Source: a virus. From it: 31,332 bases of DNA. Within the stretch, counting starts at the first letter, position 1. Every line of letters begins with the position of its first letter. A model generated the notes under the pieces. The model worked only from the letters and a program-made list of their open reading frames with translations. It ran no database searches and was not told where the DNA came from. Below are positions 9,722 to 31,332 of this stretch, in pieces. The position numbers were made by a program, and so were the translations under genes. The DNA lies in IMG/VR virus record IMGVR_UViG_3300032050_000536, positions 1 through 31,332 of that record; one strand, given 5' to 3'.

Positions 9722-9722
9722 C

Positions 9723-10379: not shown

Positions 10380-10404
10380 ATTATTTCTCCTTTGTGTGTT
10401 TGTA

Positions 10405-11621: not shown

Positions 11622-11626
11622 ACCAT

Positions 11627-11632: not shown

Positions 11633-11633
11633 A

Positions 11634-13364: not shown

Positions 13365-13370
13365 GCTATA

Positions 13371-13376
13371 CCCTTC
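13371..13376 (-). promoter_or_regulatory. Ribosome site deciding the start of the 69-aa gene
   Basis: GAAGGG six bases before the ATG at 13362-13364. It favours the short product over a longer frame that would run back over the MerR-type gene. Confidence 0.65.
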
Positions 13377-13377
13377 G

Positions 13378-14057: not shown

Positions 14058-14503
14058 CAGTTTGGTATGCCTATTGCAATAAGGTTAATGCCAACACTTG
14101 TAACTCCGCCCAGGTTAAATTTAACTGACCCCTCTATACTTGATGTAGTTACGCTAGACAATGTAACAACAACATCTTTGCCAGCATCGGTTACATTTCC
14201 CATATTTACAGGAGTTGCTGTTACAACTGGCGTAAACTTAAACTCTGTAGGAAACGAATAAGAAAATGGAAGGCTAGAACCAGCAGTCTGGCTTACGCCA
14301 TTTGTGACTTGAACATATCCGCCAATAATTCTTGCTTCTGATGTTTTGACGCTCTGCTTTCCTGCATTTGGAGTATCCACTGTAACATATTTATTTACAG
14401 ATGTTGAAGCCTGCGTTGATAAATCATTAACAGCCTTAACAATCTGATATATATATGTTACGTCTAGTGGCTGCCCTCTTTCGGGTACGGGTAAAATGGC
14501 CAT
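14057..14503 (-). CDS. Minor structural protein, likely tail-tip or fibre associated
   Basis: 148 residues. Opens MAILPVPERGQPLDVTYIYQ, with a helical segment (IVKAVNDLSTQAS), then a beta-rich C-terminal domain with many Val/Thr strands (FKFTPVVTATPVNMG, DVVVTLSSVTTSSIEGSVKF) ending in GINLIAIGIPN. This layout of short N-terminal adaptor and a C-terminal beta domain is typical of small phage fibre or receptor-binding modules. It follows an FN3-like protein. No ribosome site is seen before the ATG; a TGGTATAAT element six bases upstream suggests a leaderless transcript. Structural role is inferred. Confidence 0.55.
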   Translation of the reverse strand: MAILPVPERGQPLDVTYIYQIVKAVNDLSTQASTSVNKYVTVDTPNAGKQSVKTSEARIIGGYVQVTNGVSQTAGSSLPFSYSFPTEFKFTPVVTATPVNMGNVTDAGKDVVVTLSSVTTSSIEGSVKFNLGGVTSVGINLIAIGIPN

Positions 14504-14509
14504 AATATA

Positions 14510-14518
14510 ATTATACCA
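14510..14518 (-). promoter_or_regulatory. Extended -10 promoter, candidate leaderless start
   Basis: Minus-strand TGGTATAAT, overlapping the stop of the preceding gene. Six bases separate TATAAT from the ATG at 14501-14503 and there is no Shine-Dalgarno, so RNA could begin at or within one or two bases of the A of the ATG. The same nonamer occurs at 31112-31120. Confidence 0.45.
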
Positions 14519-14948
14519 GACTTACGGTTCCAGAGTTGTATATCTCTAAATCGTCGTTTAAAACTGGATTTATTGATGATACCTGCACAATTACTAGAAC
14601 AGAGTTTGTTCCAGTTTTTAGAAATGAATAATTGCTTGATCCAGTGGTTGCTTTGTAAGTTGGCAAAGCAGAATCAAAACCCACAAAAACATCATATAGT
14701 ATTTGTGTAGAAACATCTCCCGATTCCCAATTTACGATTACTGTATTCCCTACAATATTTATATCACCACTTCCAGGAGCAACTGCTGAGGACTCGGTAG
14801 AAAATATTGGAGAGTAGGCAGATTTTCTATTTTTATCTTCTGCAACTATCCTAAATCTTAAAATTTTGGTGTTCGCTGTCGTCACCTTGCCCAACAATTC
14901 TTTTTTAACAACAACATTTTTAATTCCAGGATCTGGTGTGATCGACAT
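14511..14948 (-). CDS. FN3/Ig-like tail protein
   Basis: 145 residues, beta-sandwich-like. The stretch ILRFRIVAEDKNRKSAYSPI, then NTVIVNWESG and ILYDVFVGFDS near 70-95, carries the Trp and Tyr spacing seen in fibronectin type III domains (core W in VIVNW, a Y in YDVFVG). Phage FN3-like domains decorate tails and can help weak surface binding. The gene lies two bases after the stop of the preceding tail gene. It could alternatively be another beta-sandwich Ig-like domain. Structural role is likely from composition and location. Confidence 0.6.
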   Translation of the reverse strand: MSITPDPGIKNVVVKKELLGKVTTANTKILRFRIVAEDKNRKSAYSPIFSTESSAVAPGSGDINIVGNTVIVNWESGDVSTQILYDVFVGFDSALPTYKATTGSSNYSFLKTGTNSVLVIVQVSSINPVLNDDLEIYNSGTVSLV

Positions 14949-14950
14949 AA

Positions 14951-16114
14951 TTAAACATCCAGTGCAAATCTAAACTCAATATAGTTTGTAGTATTTGCTG
15001 ACTTAATGATTGGCCTTTCTTGTTTATTTTTTATTACAGAATAGCCAGTGAGGCCATACAAAGAGTTTGTGGACGTAACATTTTCAAGTCTTAGTCCATC
15101 TAGACATAGATAGAAAGAGTCTGAAGGAATTCCAGACTTTGTTATTTGTCCATAAATTTTTGACAAAGAAACCTGATCCCACAAGAAACCTGTTGTCTTT
15201 TTTATATTTTGAAATTGTTTTGCTGAAACAACATATCTATTTTCTTGAAGATTTCTTTTGTCTGTAGATACTCCAGAAGCAAATGCCTGATCATCAATAT
15301 CTACCTGAAACTTTGCATACTCTTGGCCTCCTGTAGAATTAACATGAGAAAACTCTATTAAAATTTTCACATTGTCTGGAACTGTCAAAGAGTCTTCGAC
15401 TTTGCTTGCAATAGAAAATGCCAGTCTTAATTCATCAAGAGGACTATTCTTTGAAAAATTAACGGAGGGGCTATCTAATCTTATGTAGTCAGAAGTTGAT
15501 GATGCCTGCATTTCTCCTTGAGCGTCAACTGTAATTGTTGATGTGTCTCCACGCAGAACAATTATATTATTTAAAAATCTGCATCTTTCATTTCTTCCAA
15601 CTCTGTCATCTGATGTAAAAATTCTATTATCGGCATTTGTTGCAAAAACTTTGTCACTTATGTTTATAGTTCCGTTTGCATCTTCTCCGTCTAGAGGTTC
15701 AAGTTTCGGAGGTATTACAACAGGAGAACCTCCTGCCTGACTATATTTCCAGTCATCAGTATCGGTAAAAGAATATACGTTTTTACTATCAAATGATCCT
15801 GCTACTGGGTTTGATGCTGCAGAAAATATTCCAACCTCTGTAATTTCATACCTTTCTGCTGTAGGCAGTTCTGCGGTAAGGACTATCTTAGACAAACCAC
15901 CTTCATCAACAAAACCTCTAGAGATAATTGGCATACGCAACATTTCAAAATCTAAAGACTTCTTGTCTCTTATTACATCTAGTTCTGAATTAGTAAAAGG
16001 ATAATCAGACGCCACTGGCTTTGGTCCACAGCCTATAGCAATATGAGAGGCGTAAGACGTTGTCTGTCCAACAAGGTACTTAGCCAAAAGGTTCTTGCCT
16101 ACATTAGTTATCAT
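14951..16114 (-). CDS. Minor tail protein, putative fibre or tip component
   Basis: 387 residues. The N-terminal 120 residues (ITNVGKNLLAKYLVGQTTSY, IAIGCGPKPV, YEITEVGIFSA near 87-97) resemble the N-terminal attachment module of tail fibre-like proteins that dock to the baseplate or tip. The middle and C-terminal parts are beta-rich (IIVLRGDTSTITVDAQGEM, FQVDIDDQAF) and probably carbohydrate- or receptor-directed. No enzymatic motif recognised. The ATG overlaps the end of the previous gene by four bases (ATGA). Sits in a run of four small tail genes after the hub protein. Confidence 0.6.
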   Translation of the reverse strand: MITNVGKNLLAKYLVGQTTSYASHIAIGCGPKPVASDYPFTNSELDVIRDKKSLDFEMLRMPIISRGFVDEGGLSKIVLTAELPTAERYEITEVGIFSAASNPVAGSFDSKNVYSFTDTDDWKYSQAGGSPVVIPPKLEPLDGEDANGTINISDKVFATNADNRIFTSDDRVGRNERCRFLNNIIVLRGDTSTITVDAQGEMQASSTSDYIRLDSPSVNFSKNSPLDELRLAFSIASKVEDSLTVPDNVKILIEFSHVNSTGGQEYAKFQVDIDDQAFASGVSTDKRNLQENRYVVSAKQFQNIKKTTGFLWDQVSLSKIYGQITKSGIPSDSFYLCLDGLRLENVTSTNSLYGLTGYSVIKNKQERPIIKSANTTNYIEFRFALDV

Positions 16115-16641
16115 TGAGTGCTCCCGTAGTATATTGTATCATCAAAAGTGTTTCCAGCGGTTAATATTTCAACTTCTACCTGCTCATTTTCTTTTATGTT
16201 TATTAAATTAATCACAAGGTCTCCGCTTATTGGGTCTATATAAATAGACTTTCCGTTGTAGACTTTTACTCCATCGACCAGGTCGTATCCGTTTCCATAC
16301 CTAGGAAGATAGTTTGGAATTGATATAGCAAGTGATTTAAAAAATGAGTCAGCAGACTGTAATCTTAAAACATTGTTTGGATTATACTGTAGGTAAAGAT
16401 CTGTTAAATTTTTTATTGGTGTATAAATTACTGTCTGACCATTGACCAGGTCGTGCCTAGATATTGTAGCAAGTTCAAAACCACCTATATCTTCAAATAT
16501 AAGGTCTGTCATTATTTCAATAGCAACAGCCTGTTCTCCAAATATTAGTAAGTCTGGGGTTGCAACTTTGACAGAATCAGAGGTATTGGTTTTGACTGGA
16601 TTTGGAATTCCTGCTGTTGCTGGCATGCTTGTGTCTGCCAT
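16111..16641 (-). CDS. Minor tail protein
   Basis: 176 residues, no clear family. Low-complexity start (MADTSMPATAGIPNPVKT) then a mixed alpha/beta body (LLIFGEQAVAIEIMTDLIFE, NGKSIYIDPISGDLVINLIN) and a strand-rich end (EQVEVEILTAG). No cysteines, signal peptide or membrane segment. The ribosome site GAGGTGG lies five bases before the ATG, inside the last codons of the hub gene, and the two genes abut (stop then ATG). Position between hub and fibre genes supports a tail-tip connector role; this is inference. Confidence 0.5.
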   Translation of the reverse strand: MADTSMPATAGIPNPVKTNTSDSVKVATPDLLIFGEQAVAIEIMTDLIFEDIGGFELATISRHDLVNGQTVIYTPIKNLTDLYLQYNPNNVLRLQSADSFFKSLAISIPNYLPRYGNGYDLVDGVKVYNGKSIYIDPISGDLVINLINIKENEQVEVEILTAGNTFDDTIYYGSTQ

Positions 16642-19600
16642 TTATACCACCTCACTTAAAAATAGTTGCATCTCTGGACCGTTTGAATTTCTTGAAAAAT
16701 CAATATTGTATACAACAAATCTGCTTGAAGAGTCTGCAGCAATATCTATTCCATTCTCTTTGTAGTCTACGCTTACTATATCTCCAAGTTGGATTGTTGG
16801 AATAGAAAATATTTTAACTCCAAGTGCTTTTCTTGGTTTTGATATTTTTGTAACAAGCCACCTCATTAGTTCAGATGCTTCATCTTGTGACTGAATATAG
16901 GCAGCATCTAAAGAAAAATCTTTTCTTCCGTGCTGCATACGGCTAAACTTTATATCTTCGTAGTCTAACTTAAACTTAAACGGATTTGAAATTAGTTTGT
17001 CTGCAACAAATTTTGGATCTGACATTACGCTATTTTTATTAAAATATTGATCAACTGTCAAAGTATTGCTTGACTGCTGAGTAAAAGTAATTCCCTGAAT
17101 TCTTAAATAGTTTCCACTAGTTTCATCTAGATTAAGCGCAGTATCTGTTGCATTAAACACTAGAAATTCTGCGCCATATGATCCTGCTCTAAATCCAGAA
17201 ATAACAAATCCTTTTATTTTATTGAACGTTGGAGAAATTTTTGCTGTTAGTGCTGGAAATGCTTTGTCATATTTAAAACTAAATTCTGCCACTTCTCTCA
17301 TTATACTTCCAAACTCCTCAAAATAAATATCATACTTTGGTGGTTCTGAAGATCCAATTCCAGAAAGATAGGTATTTTGTATTAATCCACTCATAGCGTA
17401 TTTTCTGAAAGAGTTACCTGCATCAATATCAGAGTCTGCAAAAACAGAATTGACAACGGTTCCCAAAGAAAATGACGTGTTCTGAGAATAATTGTTGCAT
17501 AGTGCATAGACATTTTCAAACATTGCTCTTGAAGAACCTCTGGTAAATAAGGCAATATTTGAATACTCTGGCAATGGATCTGAGTCGTCTACTGTTTTTA
17601 CCATGGTTCCATTTATGTATAAGTAGAACCTTCTTATGTTTCCTATGTTTTCATACTCTACTGCTAAGTCATATACCGTCGGATTTTCTTCAGCAAATAA
17701 TCTTGACTGACCAGTAAACCTGCCATCATCTACTATAATCTTGGCTAAGCCTTTGTATAGGGTAAGTGGAATTGCTTTACCATTGTCAGACTTGACTTTA
17801 TAAAACAAAACATTGTGAACATTTTGTTTTTCTTTTTCTGACAACTTATTTAATCCAAGTGCTGCAATTTCAAAATAATATCCAACGTTGGTTGTTGGGT
17901 TTAGCATTACTGCTATACCTCCAGACCCTCCAGATATTGTAACATTTTTATCTGGGGTAGAACCATTTATAACATAGTATGATGCTGCACCATTAGCAGT
18001 TTGACCACGATCACTACTGTTTTCAATTTTACCAACTAGTCGTATTCTAGTTCCAAAGTGCTTATATTTTTTATCTGTCAAAGGCTTATGCACATATGAT
18101 ACAAAATCTCTTGGCTTATCTTTTGTCGTAAAGTTGGGACCAGTCAAAGAAAGCGCTGATGCTTGAACAGATCCAGGAACCTGCTGAGTTTGTGTAGTTA
18201 TCTCTCCTGTTAAAGAGGTTGACAAAAAGTTTCTAATAAGTCCTGTTCGTGTCGAAGTTCTTGCCAAAGCATCAGAAGATGCTCCATTGCTTATTGTTTT
18301 TCCTGCAGAAGCAACTGTTGTTTGTGGCAAATCAGTTTTTGTTTCAAACAAATATTCTGAAGCCATATAGCATCCTTTTACATTGTCTTCAGATTTCCAA
18401 TAATCAGATATACCAGCAGAATGCTCTACAACTGTTGTTCCAAATTGACCACGGCCATGCTTGGCAACTGGACCATTTTTAAGTTTTAAAATTCCTTCTT
18501 GTTCAAAATAATTAGGAACAGAGTAAATTTTGACAAGGCCTGTTGGATAAATTTTTCCATTAAATGGAAGTTTAGAGAAATAGTTTTGATACTCTTCAAC
18601 TGAAGATATCCAAACATTGCCCGAACCAGTTACGTTATATTGAACTGCGTCATACTTTATAACTTCTCCACTAGAGTAAAAGTAACCATTGTATCTTGTA
18701 ATCCAGTATACCGCTTCTCCAAGACTAAACGTATTGTTTATTACGATACCGTTTTTTACCTCTGGGACTTTATCTGATAGGTTAGAACTTAAAGGTATTG
18801 CAGCAAGCACATATGAAGATTGTGTTCCAACCTCGTTATTAATTGACTTTGTGTTCTCAGTACCAGATACTTCCCAAAGTAGTGCTGGCTTATACACATA
18901 CATTCTTTCATCTTCTAGAAGACTCGCCTGTCTTAAAGTACCGATAGATCTTTGAATATGTCTAACAGTGTAATTTATTGTGCCACCGTTGTAAACCGTG
19001 TTTGACTCATTTGATACCGAAATAATGTTTGCTAGTTTTGCATTGTCTAAAGTTTTATTTTTAATTTCTCTATCTTCATACAAATCGTTAGTTCCTTTAA
19101 GAGCAAATGTGGTTGGTCTTTGTTCTTTAGTTGGCATTATATAGTCTTTGCTCATCATAACAAAGTTATTGTACTCATCAAAAAACATTGCTGTCTGTGT
19201 TGATATTGCCAAATCCTGCAACACCTGAGCAACACTTTTATCTGGAGCAACAAAGAAAAATGGCATTACCATTTCTTTTTCATTAGAGACTCTTCTAAAT
19301 GTATAGTTAGAAAAACCGATACTGTCTAACAAAAGAGAAACTGCAGAACTAACAGAAACCTCTGTCATTAATATTTCTGGTGCTGTAATTGATTCTAGAT
19401 ACCAATACATATCTCTTAACGATATAGAAATTCTTTTATTGACCAAATCTGCTTTTGGAAATGAATCAGAGTATAAAGTTTTCATAGGAACCCAATAGTC
19501 CCAACCACCAACATTTATAATAATTTCATAAAACTTAAACTGCACATGACTATCTACATATTTTGCAATAATACTTGATGGGTTATTTTCGTTAAATGCC

Positions 19601-21189
19601 TGATCATGATCAAAAATATTAATGCTTCCATTTGATGCAACTAACTGTCCTACTGGCAAACCACTTAAACCTAAATCAGATGCGCTTTTATTTATTGAAT
19701 AATCTAACACCTTGTCGGAAAGATTCATTGCAAGTCTTGGAGAAATTTCAATAAGATCAAAAGTGGAATCTTTTGCAGTCATAGAATCTACAACAATCCT
19801 AACTCCAGAAATGTATTCAAACTCTCGATATTTAATTTTATTATCTAAAGAGTTGATAAATTTATCTGGGGAGGTTGCATCTGTAAGGAAGTTGGTTAAC
19901 CTATCAACAGTTTCATCCTGCACATACCATCCGTATTTTGGAGTTATAATTGTGTAGTCTGTGCCATTCCATATATAATATTTTCCTATATCATTTTCAT
20001 TTTCTTTAATAAGATATGCATAGCCAATAACAGACTGCTCAGGAAGTAGTGTGTCACTTGAGTATACCTCGGCAAAAACAAATGTGTCTATCCATTCGTC
20101 TGGAACAATAAAGCCATATGATATTTCAACATAGCCATCGCTTTTAATAATTGCAGAACCGTCTTTTCTTCTTTTTGACGGATCAAACGAAATAATATCT
20201 TGCCAATTTCCTTCTTTTAAGAATTGAATTTTCCATCTGCTTGGAACTTTTTGATTTACCTCTCCATAAAATGGGTCAGCAAAAGAGCCTGTTGAGGAGG
20301 AGAATGGCCCAAGGTCTTCAGTACCTGTATGGGTTTGCATTTTGATTACAACCCTGTTTGTTGGTATTTGCTCTTTGTATACCACGAAAGGACAAGCATC
20401 TTCTATGGCATTTTGAACACCATTTATTTTTGATGCAATTCCATACTCAAAATTTTCTGCTACACCTTTCTTTTCTGTATTGTCCTTGTCAATAAATGTT
20501 TCGCTCAATCCATAGGAAACAGAAGCATCATTATATGTGTACTTATATCTAGTTTCAGTCCTGTATGATGTCCAATATTTAAACTTATCTTTTTTATCTG
20601 GCATATAATATCTTGGTCTATCTGCCATAAACATATTTGGATAATGTAGTTTTCCATTTTCAAAATATACAGCCTTATTGATGCCAGATCTAGGTCTAAA
20701 TCTTTCAAAGCAACTTTCTAAGGAGTATAGCGTTTGAGTTTTTTCTTTTTTAGTTAAAAATGTAGTTGGGGTATTATCATTTTCAAAAGTGCCATCTATC
20801 AAAACATCTGCATCTGTTGCTCCTGTATAAAAATTTCCAACATCATTAATATCAAAACTTGTAGGTAAAGAAGAGTATATAGAAGATGGTTGTTCTGTAC
20901 TCACCCTCCATCGATTTCTAGTGTCCGTGTCAGAAATCTTACACTCATAAGTCGCACCTGAAGAAGATTTGCCTATTGCTCCAGCAGGTGAACAAAAAGC
21001 CCCTGGGGTAATGGTCCATACTGAACTTATTGGGTTTGGTGTTGAAGTTTGGGTTGGTCTATATCTATAATTACCAATATGCTTGATATTGTTTGTTCTG
21101 TTCATATTTAATTCTGCAATAACTGCTGACTTATTTCTAACAGTATCAGCAGTCTCTAAAAAGGTTTGCAGGTCTTTGTCTTCAAACAT
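16642..21189 (-). CDS. Tail hub/adhesion protein (Tal-like) with LamG-like domain
   Basis: 1,515 residues. A longer frame starts at 21222, but the ATG at 21187-21189 overlaps the preceding stop (TAATG) and has GGAAGAAG four bases upstream, so that start is chosen. Residues about 480-690 have the pattern of tail-hub (gp27/Tal-type) proteins (VSSAVSLLLDSIGFSNYTFR ... MPFFFVAPDKSVAQVLQDLA). Residues about 1045-1233 resemble a LamG/concanavalin-like lectin (GTRIRLVGKIENSSDRG ... RRFYLYINGTMVKTV). The C-terminal LGVKIFSIPTIQLGDIVSVDY also looks hub-like. It probably caps the tail tube and helps bind the cell surface. No lysozyme or peptidase motif was noticed. Domain calls are by eye. Confidence 0.7.
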   Translation of the reverse strand: MFEDKDLQTFLETADTVRNKSAVIAELNMNRTNNIKHIGNYRYRPTQTSTPNPISSVWTITPGAFCSPAGAIGKSSSGATYECKISDTDTRNRWRVSTEQPSSIYSSLPTSFDINDVGNFYTGATDADVLIDGTFENDNTPTTFLTKKEKTQTLYSLESCFERFRPRSGINKAVYFENGKLHYPNMFMADRPRYYMPDKKDKFKYWTSYRTETRYKYTYNDASVSYGLSETFIDKDNTEKKGVAENFEYGIASKINGVQNAIEDACPFVVYKEQIPTNRVVIKMQTHTGTEDLGPFSSSTGSFADPFYGEVNQKVPSRWKIQFLKEGNWQDIISFDPSKRRKDGSAIIKSDGYVEISYGFIVPDEWIDTFVFAEVYSSDTLLPEQSVIGYAYLIKENENDIGKYYIWNGTDYTIITPKYGWYVQDETVDRLTNFLTDATSPDKFINSLDNKIKYREFEYISGVRIVVDSMTAKDSTFDLIEISPRLAMNLSDKVLDYSINKSASDLGLSGLPVGQLVASNGSINIFDHDQAFNENNPSSIIAKYVDSHVQFKFYEIIINVGGWDYWVPMKTLYSDSFPKADLVNKRISISLRDMYWYLESITAPEILMTEVSVSSAVSLLLDSIGFSNYTFRRVSNEKEMVMPFFFVAPDKSVAQVLQDLAISTQTAMFFDEYNNFVMMSKDYIMPTKEQRPTTFALKGTNDLYEDREIKNKTLDNAKLANIISVSNESNTVYNGGTINYTVRHIQRSIGTLRQASLLEDERMYVYKPALLWEVSGTENTKSINNEVGTQSSYVLAAIPLSSNLSDKVPEVKNGIVINNTFSLGEAVYWITRYNGYFYSSGEVIKYDAVQYNVTGSGNVWISSVEEYQNYFSKLPFNGKIYPTGLVKIYSVPNYFEQEGILKLKNGPVAKHGRGQFGTTVVEHSAGISDYWKSEDNVKGCYMASEYLFETKTDLPQTTVASAGKTISNGASSDALARTSTRTGLIRNFLSTSLTGEITTQTQQVPGSVQASALSLTGPNFTTKDKPRDFVSYVHKPLTDKKYKHFGTRIRLVGKIENSSDRGQTANGAASYYVINGSTPDKNVTISGGSGGIAVMLNPTTNVGYYFEIAALGLNKLSEKEKQNVHNVLFYKVKSDNGKAIPLTLYKGLAKIIVDDGRFTGQSRLFAEENPTVYDLAVEYENIGNIRRFYLYINGTMVKTVDDSDPLPEYSNIALFTRGSSRAMFENVYALCNNYSQNTSFSLGTVVNSVFADSDIDAGNSFRKYAMSGLIQNTYLSGIGSSEPPKYDIYFEEFGSIMREVAEFSFKYDKAFPALTAKISPTFNKIKGFVISGFRAGSYGAEFLVFNATDTALNLDETSGNYLRIQGITFTQQSSNTLTVDQYFNKNSVMSDPKFVADKLISNPFKFKLDYEDIKFSRMQHGRKDFSLDAAYIQSQDEASELMRWLVTKISKPRKALGVKIFSIPTIQLGDIVSVDYKENGIDIAADSSSRFVVYNIDFSRNSNGPEMQLFLSEVV

Positions 21190-21830
21190 TATACTTCTTC
21201 CAAGGTTACTGAGACATTCCAATAGTCAAACTTAGTTCCTCTTTTTTCAACTGAATAAGAAAAGTCAGTAATAAACATTTCAATCAATTGATTGTACTGC
21301 CGAAGATGATCATATGGCGCTTCTGTTCCTTTAAAAATTCCTTTTCTATCATATGCAAGAAATACCCAGAAAGAACCTTTGTGTGCATCATACCACTCAA
21401 GCATGTCAGCACCACCTGCCCCCCCATCTGTTGTGTAGGACCTTTTTGGAGAAAGCCCACTAATTGTGTCAAATGTGGGAACATCATCGTGAGACCTAGA
21501 AGGAATCAATGTCCAACTAGTACTTAGAGTGAGTTTGTCTGAAATATGATATGATCTCATGCGACCATTAATCATTCTTTCTCTTTTTTCTATTCTTTCA
21601 TTTTTAAACTGTATTGGCTGCCTATTGTCATCAGTTATCAGTAGGAATTGATCTGCTAATGATGGATCTTCTATTCCTTCTGGATCTGCCCCGATTTCAT
21701 AGCCATTAGGAACATAAATTCCATTTTGCAAAGTGCCAGTATTTTCTGACCAAAGCATACCGCTTGGTCTATAATATTTTTGACGACCAAGCATGTAAGT
21801 AACTCTTGGGTCTATCACTTCTTCAACCAT
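21189..21830 (-). CDS. Distal tail protein (Dit-like)
   Basis: 213 residues. The C-terminal half (WYDAHKGSFWVFLAYDRKGI near 145-164, then IEMFITDFSYSVEKRG and YWNVSVTLEEV) has the shape I associate with actinophage minor tail/Dit proteins placed directly after the tape measure gene: a beta-rich ring protein connecting tube and tip. The preceding SYHISDKLTLSTSWTLIPSR strand run fits. AGAGGAG lies nine bases before the ATG, in the end of the tape measure gene, which it overlaps by eight bases. Assignment rests on position plus this motif, not on a search. Alternative: another tail-tip ring protein. Confidence 0.6.
   Translation of the reverse strand: MVEEVIDPRVTYMLGRQKYYRPSGMLWSENTGTLQNGIYVPNGYEIGADPEGIEDPSLADQFLLITDDNRQPIQFKNERIEKRERMINGRMRSYHISDKLTLSTSWTLIPSRSHDDVPTFDTISGLSPKRSYTTDGGAGGADMLEWYDAHKGSFWVFLAYDRKGIFKGTEAPYDHLRQYNQLIEMFITDFSYSVEKRGTKFDYWNVSVTLEEV
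21194..21201 (-). promoter_or_regulatory. Ribosome site deciding the hub protein start
   Basis: GGAAGAAG four bases before the ATG at 21187-21189, within the last codons of the Dit-like gene. The longer frame starting at 21222 is therefore not used. Confidence 0.65.
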
Positions 21831-24800
21831 TTAATGACACTCCTCTAATTCGTCTATTTTCAACATTTTTAATTGTCGACATAACTGCTTGTGCAATCTC
21901 GTTAGGATTTGCATCAGTTTTAGCGTTAACTGTTAATGTGTATGTATTATTATACACTGCTCCGCCAACTGGCTTTCCGCTATTTAATGACTTCATTGTG
22001 TCGACGCCGTGAGTATTTACAGCATACTTACTCATTACAAATTCTCCAGGGGTAAGCATTGCAGGAACAGTATCAGTTCCTTTAGCAAATCCTCCACGAG
22101 CAAAGAACTTAGGAATTAAGCCACCCTTTGATATATATCCAAACTTTTGTCGTCTATCAGCAATAATGTTTAGTCCAGTATTAAATCTTAATGCACTTTC
22201 TGCTGCTGCCAATTGTGCTGCTATTGATGCTGCTCCAATAGCCCCAGACTCTCCTGATGCTAATGCACTTGGATTTACTCCTGCTGCAGCAATGGCTGCT
22301 GCATTCATATCTCCCGCTGCTTTGGCTAGAGCGTATGCGTCTGCTGCTGCTTTTGATGCTGCTGCTGCATCTGTAGTTGCCCCAACTATTGCATCAGTTG
22401 CTGCTTTGTCTGCTGCTACGCTTGCTGCTGCTGCTGCAGCGTTTGCTACAACTGTTGATTGTGCATTTTTAACAGAAACTGGTGTTGAGTTATATTCTTT
22501 TAACTTAGCAAGTATGCTTGCCCACTTTGCGTCAATCGCAGCGGTTGATGCAAGCAACGCTCCTAGTACAGCATCAAAATCTTTTCCTGCAAGAGAGTTT
22601 GCTGCAATTTTTGCTTTTATGGCATCCCACTCTAACTTAGTTTTATCTAGAACTGTTAGTTCTGAAACAAGTTTATCTATTTGTGCCTGTATTAGTTCGT
22701 TGGCAAAAGTTAGGTCTGCAATTTTATCTTCTAACGGCTCAAGTTGATTCTTTTGTATTTCAAAGATAGCATCTTCTTTTTTCTGAATCTCAAGAAGTTT
22801 TGCTTCACGTGCTTCTTCTAAATCATAAATTTGATCTTCCAGATTTCTAATGTCTTGAAGAATTGTAACTCGTCTTGGATCGTTTTCCATTTGATAAAGT
22901 TTTTGAGCATTCTCAAACTGCTTTTGATCAATTTCTTCTTGAGACAAACCAGTCTCTGCTCCTCTAAGGCCTCTAATTTCATTTTCTCTTGACTGCTGCA
23001 AAGCATCAGCCACAGATCCACTAAACCTTTGTGCTGATTGTGCACGAGCATCTTGTGCTGCTTTTGCTGCTGCCGATATATCTCCACTGGTTAGTGCGCC
23101 TGCAATATCAAGTTGACTCTTTTGTTGATTGAGAATTTCTTCATTAACTTCTGCAACCTTAGCAAGAGCCTCTGCTTGCTTGTCATATTCTTTATTAATT
23201 TGCTCTGCTTGATTAGCCATAATTGCAGAGTCATTAGACATCTTCGCATTTTGCTTGTTAATTTCCTCCATGGCACGATCACCAAATTCTGGATCCATCT
23301 CCAAAATTCTTTGCTTATCGCTAATTTTTTCTTGCATTTCTTCTATAGGTCTTGTATAATTCTTTTCAATATCTTTTTCTATATCTCTAATCTCACGATT
23401 AATTAACTCGATTTGACGCCTAAAACCTTTTGCTGCTATTTCTGCATCTTGAATTTGTTTATTGTTAGCATTCATTTGCTGAACCATACCCGATGTTCTT
23501 GGGTCTGCGCCTGTTCTTAGCATTTCTTCCTGCACAGAAAACATCTCGTCTACAAGATCCATACCAGGCTGAGCAGACTCAGAATATTTTCCAGAGTTAT
23601 AGTTTACTTGAATATCAATAATTTTCTTTGCTTCAATAGAGTTTAAATAATCAGCAATTTCTTGAGCATCAACCTTTCCATCCTTTAAGTCTTCAATCAA
23701 GTGTTTTGCAAGTGCTGGGTCATTTAAAACTTCAGACATCTGATCTGCAGAGAAGCCTGCTGCCTGCATTGCTGTTCCAAGTTTAGGCATCTGCTCAAGA
23801 AGTTTAAACTCTTCGTTAGCCTGAATCATTTTTTGCTTAAGAGCAAACCTTTCTGTTTCATCAGTAGCCTTTTTAAGATCTTCAATATACTGCTTTCTTT
23901 CCTTGCTTCCCTTTTTGCCAAGTGCTCCTGCTGCAATTGCTGCTGCAGTAGCAGCATCCTGAACATGTTCTAATGCTTCTGTTGCAGTCGCTCCCTCTGA
24001 AATTAAAATTCTAAAAGCCTTCTCCTGATTTGCAACTTGCTCTACCGCTTCTCTATTAACAACGTTAGCCTCTCCTACAATAGCCTCGTTGTAGGTTCTC
24101 ATAATCTTTTTACCAGTGCCAGTAAATCCTTTTATGTTTGCCTTTGTTTTTGGCTTACCTTTTTCAAATTCAAATATAGCCTTTTTGCCTTTAAGATTTG
24201 CCAGTTTCTTAAAGTCTTCTGAAGACATAGAAGCAATCATATCTCTAAATTCTTTTGGAGCCTTTAGATTTATAAGTCTTTGCTGCAAACCATCAAACAA
24301 GTCAAATGCACGAGAAATATCCTTTTGTGCTTTTTTACTACCGAATGCAGCAAGCATAGACTGTAGTGGCTTGGTTGCATCAAATGCCCCATCACGAACA
24401 TTTTTAATTCTCATTGCAAGGTCATCAAGGAAGTCTAATGGATTTGACCCCTTACCACCATCAGGAGTAGTGTCAACAGGGGCACCGAGAGATGTCACTC
24501 CTCCAACAGAACTGGTTTCTAGTTTTTGTACTGCCATTTCTTCTGGGCTAAGTTTTGCTAATTCTTTTTTAAATTCTGCGACAATTTCTAAGTATCTAGC
24601 ACTTCCGTATGCAACTCCATCTGCTGATGCTTTTTGGAAAGCCAATGTACTTGCTAACTGTTCTCTGTCTGCTTCCCTCATTGCATCTGTTACTGTTGAC
24701 TCATAAGCAAACTGTGTAGCAAGTTTTTGTAAGTATTCTGCCTGACCGTCTAAACTTAGTTTTTGGAATTCTTTATATCTTTCTGTATTTGCTTTAAGGG

Positions 24801-27800
24801 CATCAATTGCTGCTGCTTGTGCAGGGTTGACAGCCTTTGCTGCCTCAAGGTCCATATCCTCTGCACCCTTTTTGGCTGCTTCATCTTTTAATTTTTCAAT
24901 ATTATCCATTTGTGTTTTTAGTGTTTCAATTCCTTCTAAACCAATTGTATTTACCAAAACCTCAAAGTCAATAGTGTTTCCATCCAATGATTGAATGCCC
25001 TTTAGAGTTTCCATAATTGCATCAAACTCTTTTGGATCTTTCTTGTTCATAATAATTGTAGTAATTATGTTTTGTGCTTTCTTTCTTCCCTTGCTACTAA
25101 AGCCTGCAAACATGTTAAACAATTCTTTTGTTTTTGCTGCACCCTGAGTTTTAAGTCCAGCATTAAGCAGAAGATCTAGTTGTGGAAGTTTGCCAGTAAA
25201 TAGATCCATATAACTTGTTGCTTCTCCTGGACTTAGAACCTTGCTTCCAACAAGCATTTCCATTTTTGCTTGGAATCTTTGTGCTCCTTGTTGTCCTTCA
25301 AGGCCAGTCTTTACGTACTTTCCTGTTTTAGAATTATATTTACCCATAGTGGTGTCATCCACAAGTCTTTCAGTTTTATTTAAAAACTTCTTTGCAGCAT
25401 CTTCTTGATCTGTACCCTTGTATGTTGACTCAACCTGTGATCTAGATGCATCAAAGAATGCATCTTCACGCATAGCCTGTTTGCCCCAAACGGAATTGCT
25501 ATAAACCTTATCAAAACTTGCTTGACTTTTAGCAATTTGATTAACAATAAGATTATTCATCTTTTCAGTATCTGCTACATTTTGAGTATTTAGTTTTTTA
25601 ATTTTTTCTTCAATGTCTAATTTCTTTTGTGCATTTGTTGTTGACGCTAACTCTGTTTCTAGTTTTTTCTTTTGAGTTTCATATTCGAACTGAACCTGGT
25701 CAGCCATCATTGTTGCCATTTCGATATTGTTCATATTCAGTGCTGCTAATGCTGCAACCTGTTTTCTTGAACTTTCAAACAATCCAGATTTTTCACTAAT
25801 TTCATTTTCAAGTTTATCAGTTCTAACATTTGCTTTTGCAACAAGCATTATTCTAGTTTCAATTGGACTATCTTTTAGGTTCTTTCCATCTGGTCCAAGT
25901 AATGTAACTATCTGTCCAATTATCTGTGATTCAATTTTTTGATCGCCAAGTTCTAAAGCAAGGTTGCTTGCAATACTATTTGCTGCATTCATATCTAAAA
26001 CACCGTCTGCAACAGCAGTTGAAAGTTTTAATGCTAGATCTGAAACAGCCTTGTCGTTACCAAAGTCTTTAACATTTTGCTGGAACAGTGCCTTTTCTTT
26101 TTTACCAGGATCTGACCCTAGGAACTGCTTTCCAAATGTATCATCAATCTTTGTTGTTTCGTTGTATTTTCCATACTGGCTAGACTGTCTGCGCTTATCC
26201 ATTATTTCGGATGCGCCAACTTTGCCACTTATTTCACCAATTGCCTGAAGTCCACTTCTTGTTGCTGAAAGGTCTTTTGCAAACTGTGCTGCCTTGCTTG
26301 CCATATTATTAAGATGCTTGTTAAATAGATATGCTCCTGCTGCTACGGCTGCTAGTGCTACGACAATGCCCTGCGGTCCTGTGAGGCCTGCAAGCATTGG
26401 TGCAAACTGTGCAACTGTTGCAACTGCTCCTAAGCCAGCAACTACTTGTGGTGGTGCTCCTGCCATACCCGCAACCATCGCTGCTGTTCCTGCTGCTCCT
26501 GAAATCTTGCCAGACACTCTTCCAACTTTTTCTCTTCTCATGCCTCGCTTTTTTTGAGCAATTTGTTTTTCTGAAAGAGTTGTTGGCTGCTTCTTTCCGT
26601 CTGCATCGAGTTCGGGATCAAATAAAATCTGTCCATTTTTATCTCTTGTGTAAGTGGATGCTTCCTCATATGCTTCAACAGAGCCCATTCTATTATCTAC
26701 TGACTGGCTTCCAGGAGGAACAATTCCATTCTCTGCTGCTTGTCTTGCTGCTTCTTGAGCATTATATGCTTTTAGTCTGTCTAATTCTTTTCTTTTTTCT
26801 GCTTCTATTTCTTCGTTTGTCTTTGCAATATTTGCTGAAGATTGTGCAATATCTTGTTGTGCAATACCTGCTTGATCCATTGAAGGAAGCATCTCTCCAA
26901 GGTTGTTATTTGCTGCATTGGTTAGTTGGTTGGTTGTGATCAGGTTAGACGTGTTTGTTGTTTGAGCATCTACTGCAGCCTGAGTCACATTGGCAAATTC
27001 GTCTGTTTCTTCTGCAACAATAACAGTTGAGTTTGCCAGGTTCTCTGTTTCCTTAGCAATTTCCTTACTCTGTACCTGTGTCTTCTTTGCTAAACTAACT
27101 CTAGTTTTTGTTGCTGTTTTTTCTGCTGGAAGTTCTACAGAACCCTTAGCGCCACGCTTACGTCTTTGTCTGTCAAGAGATTTAAGAACTTGTCTTTCAT
27201 CACGCATTTCTGGAGTATTAATATCATCATAGAATGCTTTATTTCCAAGATCCATTTTTGAAACTTTTGATTGTGTTTCTGCTGCAGAAGGCAGTGCAGC
27301 GTCAGTAAGTCTTGAAGACTGGGCTCTTACTGCAGTTTGCCCCTCTTCTAAACCTTGTGCAAGTCCATCTGCAATGTCTTTTCCAAGACGTTTTGTTCGT
27401 CTTGACGGTGATGCGGTTTCTGCTTTTTGCTCTGCAGCAGTTAAGTCTGCATCTACATCTTCTGCAATTTTAACTGAATCAAGTTTTGCTTTTCTCTCAG
27501 CATCTGATAATGGAACAAAGCCTTGTTCGGAACCGACACCTTCTGGATTATTTTTTCCAAATCTTTGTGCAACTTTTGCTCTTCCTGATGCTAGTCTTTC
27601 CTCTGTAGACCTTGTGTCTGCCCCAGTTGGAATTTGGATTGCAGCACGACCCTCTGCATCATACATAGTGGCAAGCATTGTCTTTTCAATTGACATAGGC
27701 TTGCCTCTGCCTGCCTTCTTTTGTTCGGCAGCCATGAAATCTTTATCAGAAAGCATACTTCTAAGAACCTCGCCTTGAATTTGAAGTTCTCTTTCATTTA

Positions 27801-30744
27801 ATGCGCCATTAGATGTCACCTTTTTAGAAATAGATAAAATTTCTTCTTCAGTTGCAGATGACTGCTTTAATTTTTCTAAATAGACACGCCTTGCATCATT
27901 ATTAGATGAAAGTGTTTGAGCCATTTCATTTTCTGCATGCGTTGACAAATCCCATAAGTCTGGATCCCAACCTTCTTGAATTCCCTTTTCTGTTGTTCCT
28001 ATTGCACCAATGTGTCCTCTGTCTAATTGAACATTTTTCTTATCTGGTCTTTGAAGTGCTGGTAGGTCTGGGCGTTCTGATGCCAATCTGTCTCCAGTTT
28101 TATTTGCAATCGCCTGAAGCCTTTCATATTCTTCTCCACGACCTGCTGCATACATTTGCTCTCTTACATTTTTTGAAACCCCAGCCTCTGTTGCTGAGTG
28201 ACCTGCAACTTTTGCATTTGCTCCAGATACTCCTGCTGCTGTGTTAATTTGTGCTGGAGTAAGTTCTACCCCGCCCATTGCTTTTGTTGCAATTCTTAAC
28301 TCTTGAACAAACTCTGTAATTGTTACACGAGAATCATCTGCAAGTCTTGCAAAAACTTCCTTAAGAACATCTGCCCCATTTTCAACACCTAGGGTTCCAT
28401 CTTGCATTGCTGCAGCAAGTTTTTCTACTTGGGCTACAACTTTGTCAGACTTTGGACTTATAGCAAGTCCGAAGGTTTCTCCAGCAATACTAAATCCAGT
28501 TCTTCCTGGCCTGGTCTGTGTACCAGTCTTTCCAGTTCCCTTTGCATACTTTGCTACTGAGCCATTTTGAAGTGCTGCAACTAATTCTGGATTTTCTTTT
28601 GCAGTCTGCTTAGTAAGAACAACTTCTCCAGGAGTTAATAATGCTGGGACTGTGTCTCCATTGCCAGTACCTGGAACAACTCCACCCTTTGCAAATTTAA
28701 CTGGTGGTATTCCTGCAACTGCTCCTGCTGGGCCTGGAACTGAATTAAACAATCCTGGTGATGATGCTGCAAGGTTTCTAGCCTGAGTACCTGCATTTTG
28801 ATAGGCCAACGCCAGTGCGTCAACTGCAGACTTTTCAACATTAAAAGTGCTTATGAGTTGTTGATGAGAAGTGTGAAGAGCATTTGTTTCTGCAAGCAAT
28901 TCAATTTGTTTATTAGTTAAATAGTCAAACCCTCCACCGAGAACATTGTTTTGTCCGTTAAGTTTAGCAATTCCTCCACGTAGCATTGCAAAGAACTTAA
29001 TTATGTTTGCAAGTCCGTTAGCAAGGATACCGAATGTCATAAGAGCAACTGGGGCAATAGCACCAAGTACGCCGATCATAATAGTTATTGCTTTTTTGGT
29101 TCCGTCGCTTAAGCCGTTAAACTTTGCTAGTAGTTTTCCAACAAATCCAACTATTGGGGTTATTGCCTCTAAGAATGCTTTTCCTACTGGTACTAGTTCA
29201 TTCTTTAAATTTTCCATGGCTTTTTTGAATTTAGCCCCTGTTGAATCTTCAACTCTTTTTAATTCTCGTTCAGATAAGATTGCAAGTTCTTCTACTGATG
29301 CTCCAGCAAGGTCGAGTGCTCTAGACGCTTGTGTACCATCTTTTACAATGTTTTGAAATAATGTAGAAATACGAGCAAACTGGAACTTGCCAAATAGTTG
29401 TTCAATTGCCCTTGAACGATTAAGTGGGTCTAATGTATCTAGTGCTCTAGCAAGTCCTACTACAGTACCTTTTAAATTTCCAGCGTTGTTATCAACAATG
29501 CCTTTTATGTTAATGCCCATCTCTGCAAGAAATTCGCTAGTTTTCTTTGCTGGGTTAATGATGGATGCAAGTCCAGACTTAAGTGCGTTAGCACCTTCTG
29601 ATGCGTTAATTCCACCTTCCTTCATTGCCGTCATAAAGAACGCTAGATCTTCAACAGATCCACCAAGTTGTTTTACAACTGGTCCAGCCTTTGGAATTGC
29701 AATAGTCAAGTCTTCAATAGATAAGACAGTTTGGTTTTCTACTGCGTTGAGAAAGTTAATTTTTTGTGCAAGTTGCTCTGACGATACTCCAAAAGCGTTT
29801 TGTAAAGAAATTGTTGTTTCAAGTGCTTGCTGCTGTTCTACTTGGCCAAGGACAGAAAGTCTTGTTGCCTGAACTACTTGAGACTCAAGAGCATCTCCCA
29901 TCATACCCATTGCTGCAGCGGTTGCAGCCATTTCCATAGTATCTTTTACTGCAATGCCATATTTTGTAAACTCTTTACCCAGTCTTTGTATGTCAGCAAC
30001 TGCCTTATTGGTTGCATCTCCAGAAGTAGTTATATCTCCGTATACCCTTGTAAACTTGAGAACAGCCTCTTCCATTTCCATAAATGTTTTGGCTGCTGCT
30101 GATCCAAGGATGGAAAGAGGAATTGTCAAACCAACCATCAACTGACGACCAGCCCACTGAGTATTCTTACCAAAGTTTAGAAGGTTTGTAGAGCCTTGCT
30201 TTAATAATTGGTTTAAGAACTGCTGCCTTTGTGCAGCCATCTGAACTCTTGTGGCATAGTCTGTATATCTGCCATTGGTCATTTGTAGATGTTTTGGAAC
30301 TACCTGCAAAACCTTGACAAGATCTCCATTGGCATTGCCCAATTGAATGTACTGAGACTGAAGAAGTTTTACTCTATCTTTACGAGCACGGTTAATAATT
30401 TCACGCTCTTGAGCAAACATTCCTTTAAAAGTTTTTGTATTTGCCGTCGCTGCTGCTGCTGTATACCTAAAGTACTGTCGCATTGACAGTTGGTTTTTTT
30501 CAAGGGCGGATGTAAAAGACGCTGTACTTGTTGCTATTTCTTTTTGACTTGCAACAAACTTTCCAGTTGCATTGATAGACTGCATGAGTCTTTCGTTGAG
30601 GCCCTTCTGGGCATTCATTGCTGCAACATTTCCCTGAGTTAGGGATTGATTAAAAGTGCTTAAGCCAGCCTGAAGTTTACGAAGAGATGCGAGGGCTGCT
30701 CTGGTATCAAAATTAATACCAATATTGGAGTTTACATCAGCCAC
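21823..30744 (-). CDS. Tail tape measure protein
   Basis: 2,973 residues, GTG start. Residues about 220-420 match the TP901-type tape measure core (MEMEEAVLKFTRVYGDITTS ... IAIPKAGPVVKQLGG ... MKEGGINASEGANALKSGLA). Hydrophobic segments lie at about 551-590 and 1414-1474, as expected for the part that enters the membrane. Long coiled coils occupy about 2415-2700 and an Ala-rich stretch about 2750-2850. The motif DTVPA-x-LTPGE occurs twice (about 697-707 and 2891-2901). DRGH at 908-911 is discussed in the findings. By the usual 1.5 Å per residue this predicts a tail of roughly 450 nm. Encodes tail length and DNA-ejection functions. Start: GTG with AGAGGG nine bases upstream; it follows the chaperone gene by 18 nt. 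Confidence 0.95.
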   Translation of the reverse strand: MADVNSNIGINFDTRAALASLRKLQAGLSTFNQSLTQGNVAAMNAQKGLNERLMQSINATGKFVASQKEIATSTASFTSALEKNQLSMRQYFRYTAAAATANTKTFKGMFAQEREIINRARKDRVKLLQSQYIQLGNANGDLVKVLQVVPKHLQMTNGRYTDYATRVQMAAQRQQFLNQLLKQGSTNLLNFGKNTQWAGRQLMVGLTIPLSILGSAAAKTFMEMEEAVLKFTRVYGDITTSGDATNKAVADIQRLGKEFTKYGIAVKDTMEMAATAAAMGMMGDALESQVVQATRLSVLGQVEQQQALETTISLQNAFGVSSEQLAQKINFLNAVENQTVLSIEDLTIAIPKAGPVVKQLGGSVEDLAFFMTAMKEGGINASEGANALKSGLASIINPAKKTSEFLAEMGINIKGIVDNNAGNLKGTVVGLARALDTLDPLNRSRAIEQLFGKFQFARISTLFQNIVKDGTQASRALDLAGASVEELAILSERELKRVEDSTGAKFKKAMENLKNELVPVGKAFLEAITPIVGFVGKLLAKFNGLSDGTKKAITIMIGVLGAIAPVALMTFGILANGLANIIKFFAMLRGGIAKLNGQNNVLGGGFDYLTNKQIELLAETNALHTSHQQLISTFNVEKSAVDALALAYQNAGTQARNLAASSPGLFNSVPGPAGAVAGIPPVKFAKGGVVPGTGNGDTVPALLTPGEVVLTKQTAKENPELVAALQNGSVAKYAKGTGKTGTQTRPGRTGFSIAGETFGLAISPKSDKVVAQVEKLAAAMQDGTLGVENGADVLKEVFARLADDSRVTITEFVQELRIATKAMGGVELTPAQINTAAGVSGANAKVAGHSATEAGVSKNVREQMYAAGRGEEYERLQAIANKTGDRLASERPDLPALQRPDKKNVQLDRGHIGAIGTTEKGIQEGWDPDLWDLSTHAENEMAQTLSSNNDARRVYLEKLKQSSATEEEILSISKKVTSNGALNERELQIQGEVLRSMLSDKDFMAAEQKKAGRGKPMSIEKTMLATMYDAEGRAAIQIPTGADTRSTEERLASGRAKVAQRFGKNNPEGVGSEQGFVPLSDAERKAKLDSVKIAEDVDADLTAAEQKAETASPSRRTKRLGKDIADGLAQGLEEGQTAVRAQSSRLTDAALPSAAETQSKVSKMDLGNKAFYDDINTPEMRDERQVLKSLDRQRRKRGAKGSVELPAEKTATKTRVSLAKKTQVQSKEIAKETENLANSTVIVAEETDEFANVTQAAVDAQTTNTSNLITTNQLTNAANNNLGEMLPSMDQAGIAQQDIAQSSANIAKTNEEIEAEKRKELDRLKAYNAQEAARQAAENGIVPPGSQSVDNRMGSVEAYEEASTYTRDKNGQILFDPELDADGKKQPTTLSEKQIAQKKRGMRREKVGRVSGKISGAAGTAAMVAGMAGAPPQVVAGLGAVATVAQFAPMLAGLTGPQGIVVALAAVAAGAYLFNKHLNNMASKAAQFAKDLSATRSGLQAIGEISGKVGASEIMDKRRQSSQYGKYNETTKIDDTFGKQFLGSDPGKKEKALFQQNVKDFGNDKAVSDLALKLSTAVADGVLDMNAANSIASNLALELGDQKIESQIIGQIVTLLGPDGKNLKDSPIETRIMLVAKANVRTDKLENEISEKSGLFESSRKQVAALAALNMNNIEMATMMADQVQFEYETQKKKLETELASTTNAQKKLDIEEKIKKLNTQNVADTEKMNNLIVNQIAKSQASFDKVYSNSVWGKQAMREDAFFDASRSQVESTYKGTDQEDAAKKFLNKTERLVDDTTMGKYNSKTGKYVKTGLEGQQGAQRFQAKMEMLVGSKVLSPGEATSYMDLFTGKLPQLDLLLNAGLKTQGAAKTKELFNMFAGFSSKGRKKAQNIITTIIMNKKDPKEFDAIMETLKGIQSLDGNTIDFEVLVNTIGLEGIETLKTQMDNIEKLKDEAAKKGAEDMDLEAAKAVNPAQAAAIDALKANTERYKEFQKLSLDGQAEYLQKLATQFAYESTVTDAMREADREQLASTLAFQKASADGVAYGSARYLEIVAEFKKELAKLSPEEMAVQKLETSSVGGVTSLGAPVDTTPDGGKGSNPLDFLDDLAMRIKNVRDGAFDATKPLQSMLAAFGSKKAQKDISRAFDLFDGLQQRLINLKAPKEFRDMIASMSSEDFKKLANLKGKKAIFEFEKGKPKTKANIKGFTGTGKKIMRTYNEAIVGEANVVNREAVEQVANQEKAFRILISEGATATEALEHVQDAATAAAIAAGALGKKGSKERKQYIEDLKKATDETERFALKQKMIQANEEFKLLEQMPKLGTAMQAAGFSADQMSEVLNDPALAKHLIEDLKDGKVDAQEIADYLNSIEAKKIIDIQVNYNSGKYSESAQPGMDLVDEMFSVQEEMLRTGADPRTSGMVQQMNANNKQIQDAEIAAKGFRRQIELINREIRDIEKDIEKNYTRPIEEMQEKISDKQRILEMDPEFGDRAMEEINKQNAKMSNDSAIMANQAEQINKEYDKQAEALAKVAEVNEEILNQQKSQLDIAGALTSGDISAAAKAAQDARAQSAQRFSGSVADALQQSRENEIRGLRGAETGLSQEEIDQKQFENAQKLYQMENDPRRVTILQDIRNLEDQIYDLEEAREAKLLEIQKKEDAIFEIQKNQLEPLEDKIADLTFANELIQAQIDKLVSELTVLDKTKLEWDAIKAKIAANSLAGKDFDAVLGALLASTAAIDAKWASILAKLKEYNSTPVSVKNAQSTVVANAAAAAASVAADKAATDAIVGATTDAAAASKAAADAYALAKAAGDMNAAAIAAAGVNPSALASGESGAIGAASIAAQLAAAESALRFNTGLNIIADRRQKFGYISKGGLIPKFFARGGFAKGTDTVPAMLTPGEFVMSKYAVNTHGVDTMKSLNSGKPVGGAVYNNTYTLTVNAKTDANPNEIAQAVMSTIKNVENRRIRGVSLNG
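22190..22450 (-). repeat. GCT/GCA-rich low-complexity coding segment
   Basis: Inside the tape measure gene, a run of Ala codons (plus-strand tgctgctgc units) encodes a stretch of mostly Ala, Asp, Ser and Lys residues. It is in frame and probably a long helix. Not a CRISPR array; there are no spacers. Confidence 0.7.
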
Positions 30745-30762
30745 TCATTAACACCCTCTTCT

Positions 30763-31086
30763 TTATTTAATTGAGTTTAAAAGACCTGTTGCATCTGCCA
30801 GTTTCATTCCTGACGCTGCATCAATAATCTTATAGACTGTAGGAAGATCTAGATTTTCCTCAATCGCCTCTCTGTTGTCTGCTACTGCAGGCAAATACTG
30901 CTTGAATGCGATCTGTACGCAATCTAGCAGAACATTCATTGACTTTTCATTATCTTCTGCCACTTCTTGCAACTCATTAAACTTCTTCATAAACGGTTTT
31001 AGCAATGAGATTTTTAGTGGTCTTACTTCAAACTTTGTTCCATCGATAAGTTGTAGTTGTTCGTTTTCTTCAACTTTTGTAGGCAT
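30763..31086 (-). CDS. Putative tail assembly chaperone
   Basis: 107 residues, directly before the tape measure gene. Helical, with ISLLKPFMKKFNELQEVAED near 27-46 and LLDCVQIAFKQYLPAVADN near 53-71, the size and position of the short tail chaperone (gpG-like) that binds the tape measure protein during tail assembly. A GGAGGGG ribosome site lies a few bases before the ATG, preceded by a TGGTATAAT promoter-like element. No longer frameshifted partner ORF is available, since only 18 nt separate its stop from the tape measure start. Function is inferred from position and size. Confidence 0.65.
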   Translation of the reverse strand: MPTKVEENEQLQLIDGTKFEVRPLKISLLKPFMKKFNELQEVAEDNEKSMNVLLDCVQIAFKQYLPAVADNREAIEENLDLPTVYKIIDAASGMKLADATGLLNSIK

Positions 31087-31111
31087 TTCCCCTCCTTATA
31101 AGGTTTAGTTA

Positions 31112-31120
31112 ATTATACCA
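31112..31120 (-). promoter_or_regulatory. Candidate extended -10 promoter before the chaperone gene
   Basis: Minus-strand TGGTATAAT in the 55-base gap, about 26 bases before the chaperone ATG. No -35 hexamer is evident. A start about seven bases on would give a short leader with the GGAGGGG site at 31089-31095. A CCTTATAAGG palindrome overlaps that site. Confidence 0.45.
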
Positions 31121-31141
31121 TAGGACAGGCTTATTTTTTGG

Positions 31142-31332
31142 CTATTCTAAAACCTCATAGGTAAGGCCCATGCCGATTCCAAACCCAGCCCTTTCTGCAT
31201 TTTTACCTTGCAGGGCAAGTATGTCATTTCCACTGGTTGCTTTGCCTTTACTAAATACCCTGGCTTTCATGTCTTCCCATTCGTTACCCTTGCCTGACTT
31301 TTTGTCCAAGTCAATACCCTTCATTGCAGCAA
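31142..31332 (-). CDS. C-terminal part of an unidentified protein (5' end outside window)
   Basis: About 63 residues are visible, ending ERAGFGIGMGLTYEVLE. The frame stays open to the window edge, so the ATG at 31322-31324 need not be the start; two alanine codons precede it in frame. Sequence is Lys/Gly-rich (KGIDLDKKSGKGNEWEDMKA). Location immediately before the tail chaperone would suit a tail tube or major tail protein, but nothing in the visible part proves that. A TAG ends it at 31142-31144, followed by the gap with a promoter-like element; no terminator hairpin is seen. Confidence 0.4.
   Translation of the reverse strand, partial: AAMKGIDLDKKSGKGNEWEDMKARVFSKGKATSGNDILALQGKNAERAGFGIGMGLTYEVLE

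Follow-up and report, generated by a model that had tools for sequence, protein, structure and literature searches.

Tape measure proteins (TMPs) exit the phage tail before the DNA. Lytic transglycosylases are embedded in the tape measures of enterococcal phages (PMC10194240), and a conduit role has been proposed for the tape measure (PMC10883804). In the P22-type virion assembly cluster, genes 16 and 20 are among the most variable, modules are exchanged inside the gene for gp20, an exclusion protein acts on the ejection proteins, and superinfection exclusion is overcome by changes in tape measure or ejection proteins (PMC10883804). The locus analyzed here lies in IMG/VR virus record IMGVR_UViG_3300032050_000536, taken at its full length of 31,332 bases (38% G+C; hereafter the window), where a TMP carries a module with a DRGH motif. 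This module occupies an exchangeable slot of the TMP and is swapped as a cassette between phages, and we give an even chance to the reading that it belongs to a family not yet described, acts at the entry stage and has a probable histidine/asparagine (His/Asn) site. The likeness to gp16 and gp20 lies in variable proteins that exit the virion with the DNA; those are proteins of a short-tailed phage, whereas a single fixed TMP slot with a recurring His motif is found here. Polymorphic toxin systems (PMC3482391) likewise join a conserved carrier to an exchangeable module, as this locus does, yet the present slot is internal rather than C-terminal and belongs to a phage tail rather than a secretion system. 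No description of such a TMP slot was found in the titles and abstract openings examined, which cover part of the papers retrieved.

The TMP gene spans 21823-30744 on the minus strand and encodes, from a GTG start, 2973 residues with no cysteine and 10 histidines. Its product matches Pfam family PF10145 at 1e-24 and nine PHROG tape-measure families, each at 3.4e-10 or better, and its annotated homologues, among the matches listed, carry tape measure protein names; the product is thus a phage tape measure protein, the identity that an initial annotation of the sequence had given to the protein bearing DRGH. In a collection of annotated phages, Streptomyces and Gordonia phages are the closest to the N-terminal part of the TMP, which suggests an actinobacterial host for the window phage.

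Scanning viral contigs yielded 47 loci, and the surroundings of the motif are recognisable in 26 of them (for L025, only in the last part). Both flanks are retained in 20 of the other 21, and the residues between them, approximately 741-1090, largely are not; the contig of L031 starts inside the slot. Another scan, which took the upstream flank as query (A3; rows 53-85% identical to the window), detected 115 relatives, of which the best 80 were kept. Together the two scans gave 121 TMPs with the upstream anchor, 116 of which also have the downstream anchor and provide 54 distinct cassettes; the other 5 of the 121 have no downstream anchor within the contig and were left out, the re-fetched contigs L048-L072 were excluded, and the 116 loci include duplicate contigs. 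Seven loci found later (L159, L162, L164-L166, L168 and L169) stand outside the count of 54. The cassettes fall into five groups with 23, 17, 7, 5 and 2 members, for which we built alignments A1 (17 rows, the window's own family), A4 (22 of its group's 23 cassettes, with L141, a relative of L138, omitted), A5 (7 rows) and A6 (5 rows). Rows of A4 share 18-42% identity with its first row, one near copy excepted, and the two-member group, L033 and L046, is joined to the window's family by a shared tail only and was counted apart. Profile comparison links A4 with A6 at a probability of 96.8%, and in that match the His residues of the two families align with each other, as do the Asn residues.

The flanks of the slot are far more constant than its contents. 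An upstream motif, KGGVVPGTGNGDTVPALLTPGEVV, lies at 28618-28689 (minus strand, residues 686-709) and a downstream motif, SPSRRTKRLGKDIADGLAQGL, at 27349-27411 (minus strand, residues 1112-1132), of which SPS[KR] is constant across cassette types. For L026 and L027 the flanks are 93-94% and 95-99% identical, versus 25-26% for the cassette, and unrelated cassettes score 21-29% in the same global alignment. Among pairs from different groups, both protein flanks reach at least 80% identity in 27 and at least 90% in 2, with cassettes at 21-33% among the pairs listed; most of these 27 pairs involve L026 or L027, which have nearly the same cassettes, and the pairs are therefore not independent. In the shorter and more distant TMP of L159 (2123 residues, no SPS anchor), an A6-like cassette at 8809-9738 retains both motifs of A6, the one with His as YVAAH and the one with Asn as PEEANKK, and the module is therefore not bound to one type of tape measure. 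Bacterial genomes gave no relatives with A1 or A3 as queries, and annotated phages gave no match for the four cassettes queried, matching only the N-terminal part of the TMP and the flank motif. As a separate observation on the flank, TVPA(L/M)LTPGE(V/F)V occurs twice in the TMP, at residues ~696 (28618-28689) and ~2889 (22033-22080; both minus strand), the layout one would see if a shorter but complete tape measure had been lengthened.

An exchange of the whole cassette is seen when the window is compared with the L160 contig (60,815 bases). The two match at a rounded 100% over window positions 1-10,000 and 10,001-19,000 and at 98.6% over 18,412-27,456 and 28,705-31,332, and for the stretch between these last two there is no nucleotide match, an unrelated segment of ~1071 bases taking its place in L160. 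The exchanged segment is thus 27457-28704 (minus strand, TMP residues 681-1096); the predicted domain stops exactly at its downstream breakpoint, residue 1096, and its upstream breakpoint, residue 681, precedes that domain. Mismatches are sparse far from the slot and denser beside it, numbering 1 to 9 per 500 bases at 18.5-25 kb and between 0 and 31 over the remaining distance up to the slot; on its other side they fall from 15 to 0 per 500 bases. The foreign module of L160 recurs at 99.3% identity in L161, which comes from another metagenome and has other matches to the window at 88-96%, and the window-type module lies within matches of 12.5 and 10.4 kb to L001 and L010 at 99.95-99.96%. Because both modules recur in further contigs, an assembly chimera is an unlikely source of the difference, and from these comparisons the swap appears to be recent.

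The DRGH motif occupies TMP residues 908-911 (28012-28023, minus strand) and is followed by AENEMAQTLSSNN at residues 937-949 and by YLEKLK at 955-960, all three where the initial annotation had placed them. DRGH arises in 0.1% of 2000 shuffles of the TMP, a figure that by itself means little, as scanning for any known motif would fairly often yield some four-letter match. What lifts the motif above chance is conservation in homologues: across A1, which comprises 17 aligned representatives including the window (42-93% identity to it), R909, H911 and N939 are each invariant (17/17). A second invariant His of the window's family, H849 (17/17), stands in GHS at residues 848-850 (28195-28203, minus strand). 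The remaining positions are looser, with D908 in 15/17, G910 in 12/17 and otherwise Ala, N948 in 9/17, N949 in 11/17 and E957 in 12/17, so that DRGH itself is replaced by DRAH in three rows and by SRAH in two. Of the N...N...E order proposed to follow DRGH, the first Asn, N939, accordingly stands, and N948/N949 and E957 vary; homologues lacking D, H and N had been named as the outcome that would speak against the motif, and D alone is lost, in 2/17.

Across all groups, a small residue followed by His ([SAG]H) is present in 54/54 distinct cassettes, and the seven later loci also have [AS]-His in the module. The extended pattern [FRY][SAG]H occurs in 51/54 cassettes (mean 5 and maximum 14 in 300 shuffles; the exceptions are L121 with EGH, L135 with EAH and L119 with AAH). 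Cassettes hold 51 copies of it in 20,406 residues, and the remainder of these proteins has 4 in 142,311. Together with the invariance of H911 and N939, the recurrence of [SAG]H rules out a chance motif. His is also about three times more frequent in the cassettes (0.94%) than in the rest of these proteins (0.30%). A1 (17/17), A4 (22/22) and A6 (5/5) each have an invariant His together with an invariant Asn, and the most divergent alignment retains just 12 invariant columns, with His and Asn among them.

A structural counterpart of this pair is predicted. AlphaFold2 was run on TMP residues 720-1110 (model 1; the 391-residue query A2, with 17 sequences) and gave a mean predicted local distance difference test score (pLDDT) of 86.3, mostly above 85 and 87-92 in the blocks around the motif, with a predicted template modelling score (pTM) of 0.78. 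The predicted folded module covers about 350 residues (TMP residues 747-1096, residues 28-377 of A2; 27457-28506, minus strand). In the secondary-structure order, read from the DSSP string of the models, a predicted strand at 907-911 (28012-28026, minus strand) ends at H911, a second at 931-935 (WDLST; 27940-27954, minus strand) leads into a predicted helix at 936-947 (27904-27939, minus strand), and N939 (27928-27930) is the fourth residue of that helix. Model 2, of the L144 module from A4, has a strand at 101-105 ending at H105 and a strand at 156-160 followed by a helix at 161-169 with N164 in fourth position, and between the His strand and the Asn strand lie two further strands and two helices. 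In both models, then, which come from families with no detectable similarity, the predicted strand closes with His, and Asn is the fourth residue of a predicted helix preceded by a strand. A purely helical or disordered model had been named as grounds for abandoning a nuclease fold; at the motif, model 1 is neither, although most of the module is helical.

Several points weigh against reading this His and its partner as one shared functional site. Comparison of the A1 profile with A4, A5 and A6 detected no relation, and A5 compared with A4 showed none beyond the shared tail (together with A4 against A6, these are the pairs that the comparisons covered), so that the common His could be convergent. 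A5 pairs its invariant His with a Glu 29 residues later (7/7) and has no conserved Asn after the His, and the second-residue check covered A1, A4, A5 and A6. The counts for [FRY][SAG]H are descriptive, as the pattern was picked after inspection. Seven of the 17 rows of A1 are mutually close, at 86-93% identity to the window, and the rows are therefore not independent. Model 2, built from 22 sequences, is only moderately confident (pLDDT 74.8, pTM 0.63). Finally, neither sequence nor fold searches returned a significant relative of known function.

The initial annotation had likened DRGH and its surroundings to the NucA/EndoG nucleases, of the His-Me finger type, and membership of that family is not supported. 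No match to PF01223 (Endonuclease_NS) was found in the window record at E<=10, where the same profile matches 4/14 control genomes; the profile is likewise absent from the Pfam matches at E<=1 for the module and for its 75-residue piece, and Pfam, NCBIfam and PDB sequence searches of the module gave nothing significant. The NucA/EndoG signature, which we take to be DRGH with a second Asn and a Glu, is not kept in full in A1, where D, G, the second Asn and Glu all vary. NucA/EndoG membership is rejected on these profile and signature tests. Foldseek, with model 1 searched in PDB and BFVD and model 2 in PDB, returned no match below E 0.001, to proteins with the beta-beta-alpha-metal fold proposed for the region or to any other, a result to be read with the caveat that a fold search may miss a small motif inside a large helical model. 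The best VIA Z was 3.8 for model 1 and 6.9 for model 2, the latter with rows mostly over residues 1-99, its N-terminal helices. What survives of a nuclease-like insertion in the tape measure is a folded domain inside the TMP with an invariant His and Asn, and not membership of a nuclease family.

Weak partial matches were to catechol dioxygenase (0.00087), apolipoprotein (0.0011), ZorA (0.0013), ADH_Fe_C (0.0047), phrog_3922 (0.0062) and Csx1 (0.0093). Two further candidates were rejected: an HNH match (PHROG 12980, E 0.055, on L041) covers residues 124-163 and not the His motif at 266-268, and is attributed to chance, and an ADP-ribosyltransferase-like reading of one cassette family (FAHG plus a second motif containing Tyr) was dropped, the models having few strands.

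A more distant kinship with these nucleases deserves separate weighing. His-Me fingers are defined by a His in the middle of the first strand, a loop of variable length and an Asn close to the point where the helix behind the second strand begins, and in the Serratia enzyme Gly precedes the His (PMC5758888). Both models predict a His on the first strand of the motif (H911, H105) and an Asn early in a helix that follows a strand (N939, N164). The predicted order of strand with His, strand, and helix with Asn agrees with His-Me fingers; the one departure is the position of the His, which closes its strand here and lies in mid-strand in PMC5758888. The window module further shares with Serratia/NucA-type nucleases the DRGH text itself, a small residue before the His (a feature of 54/54 distinct cassettes) and a His-to-Asn spacing of 28 residues, against 30 in the Serratia enzyme (His89, Asn119), and the very divergent A4 group has the same His/Asn order in model 2. 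The module would then be a highly diverged His-Me finger nuclease delivered with the TMP, in which H911 would act as general base and N939 as metal ligand, and the target would be host or competitor DNA on entry. Unlike those nucleases, it is embedded in a large helical domain, and PF01223, Pfam, NCBIfam, PDB and fold searches all gave no significant match; D908, G910, the second Asn and the Glu are not conserved, A5 has Glu for Asn, and in A4 about 59 residues and extra strands separate His from Asn. A nuclease that enters before the phage's own DNA would also require control. On balance we find this explanation improbable.

Tape measures of related phages suggest another occupant for the slot. 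Angela and Trina, which share the N-terminal part of the TMP, and Clark and Clawz, which share the flank motif, have TMPs with M23 or SLT domains, and in actinobacterial phages these domains lie, as judged by eye, in the same parts of the TMP as GG...GE-type motifs. Lysins within tape measures are documented (PMC10194240), and neither the window TMP nor three neighbouring, probably tail, proteins gave a match to a known wall hydrolase. The cassette could accordingly be a cell-wall-cutting enzyme of an undescribed family, filling a slot that in other phages is taken by wall hydrolases of known type. The likeness to the actinobacterial SLT and M23 lysins consists in an extra folded TMP domain and GG...GE-type motifs in the same proteins, but the window module has no similarity to a lysin family, is exchanged at strain level and has one shared His. 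Searches gave no similarity to any hydrolase family, and Pfam found no wall-hydrolase domain in the window TMP, in the 17 A1 and 22 A4 cassettes or in seven single modules. With invariant peptidoglycan as the substrate, one would not expect a swap between near-identical phages that presumably share a host, and an M23-type zinc site is disfavoured because only one His is common to the groups (two in the window's family). We consider a wall hydrolase unlikely. In Gordonia phage Clawz (L173, 3413-8593), a stretch resembling NlpC/P60 was noted by eye after GGSVPGSGNGDTVPALLTPKEFV, where Pfam reports only TMP_3 and SLT; it would be another enzyme beside the same flank motif.

The cassette may also have no catalytic site at all and serve as a variable folded spacer or decoy, with the His kept for folding. 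The module is mostly helical, many other residues are invariant in the window's family and no enzyme relative was found, all of which would fit a purely structural domain. Against this, His and Asn are among just 12 invariant columns of the most divergent alignment, His is enriched about threefold in the cassettes, and the motif recurs in groups for which no alignment is possible. We consider a purely structural role improbable.

The reading we favor remains an exchangeable entry-stage module with a His/Asn site. Such a module would exit the tail together with the TMP, ahead of the DNA, and may act at the envelope, at the inner membrane or just within the cell. An invariant His/Asn pair points to a real site, and the strand-end His and helix-start Asn would together make up a functional site, for which catalysis is likelier than a purely structural part, although docking without enzymatic activity may also be its role; M23 and SLT domains near similar GG...GE motifs favor an entry-stage role for the occupant of the slot. 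The slot may have been diversified by contact with a variable host partner, such as an inner-membrane docking protein or a prophage exclusion protein. Variation of the partner is suggested because the two compared phages are otherwise almost the same, also in their tail genes; as this module is the sole unmatched stretch, the partner would vary and the receptor would stay constant. In our view, exclusion or docking proteins are likelier partners than invariant peptidoglycan. A far broader proposal would see in the fixed TMP slot of long-tailed, apparently actinobacterial phages a set of interchangeable modules from a very divergent His plus Asn/Glu enzyme superfamily with a His-Me-like layout. 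Delivered before the genome and diversified in the manner of polymorphic effectors, such modules would disarm functions that vary among hosts or prophages while the DNA enters; taken as a whole, we regard this as speculative and improbable.

The tape measure, usually viewed as a ruler, is here the site of difference between near-identical phages. Between the window and L160, nucleotide similarity is absent over the cassette and nowhere else in the window, and up to about 25 kb the genes have hardly changed. If what the module meets during DNA entry is a factor of the host or of a prophage, this would explain how phages that share their receptor-binding genes could differ in the cells open to them. 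H911 and N939 provide a testable pair of residues for the question of what a tape measure does after it has left the tail.

Elsewhere in the window, a 1526-residue protein encoded two genes after the TMP (16642-21222, minus strand) has no Pfam match at E 0.001. The minus strand between 3848 and 12854 encodes several replication and repair proteins of bacterial type in this phage, among them a Cas4-like nuclease (3848-4663), RecA (5446-6462), a DNA polymerase III alpha subunit with a PHP domain (6446-9721), a DnaG-like primase (10405-11349) and a DnaB-like helicase (11634-12854).

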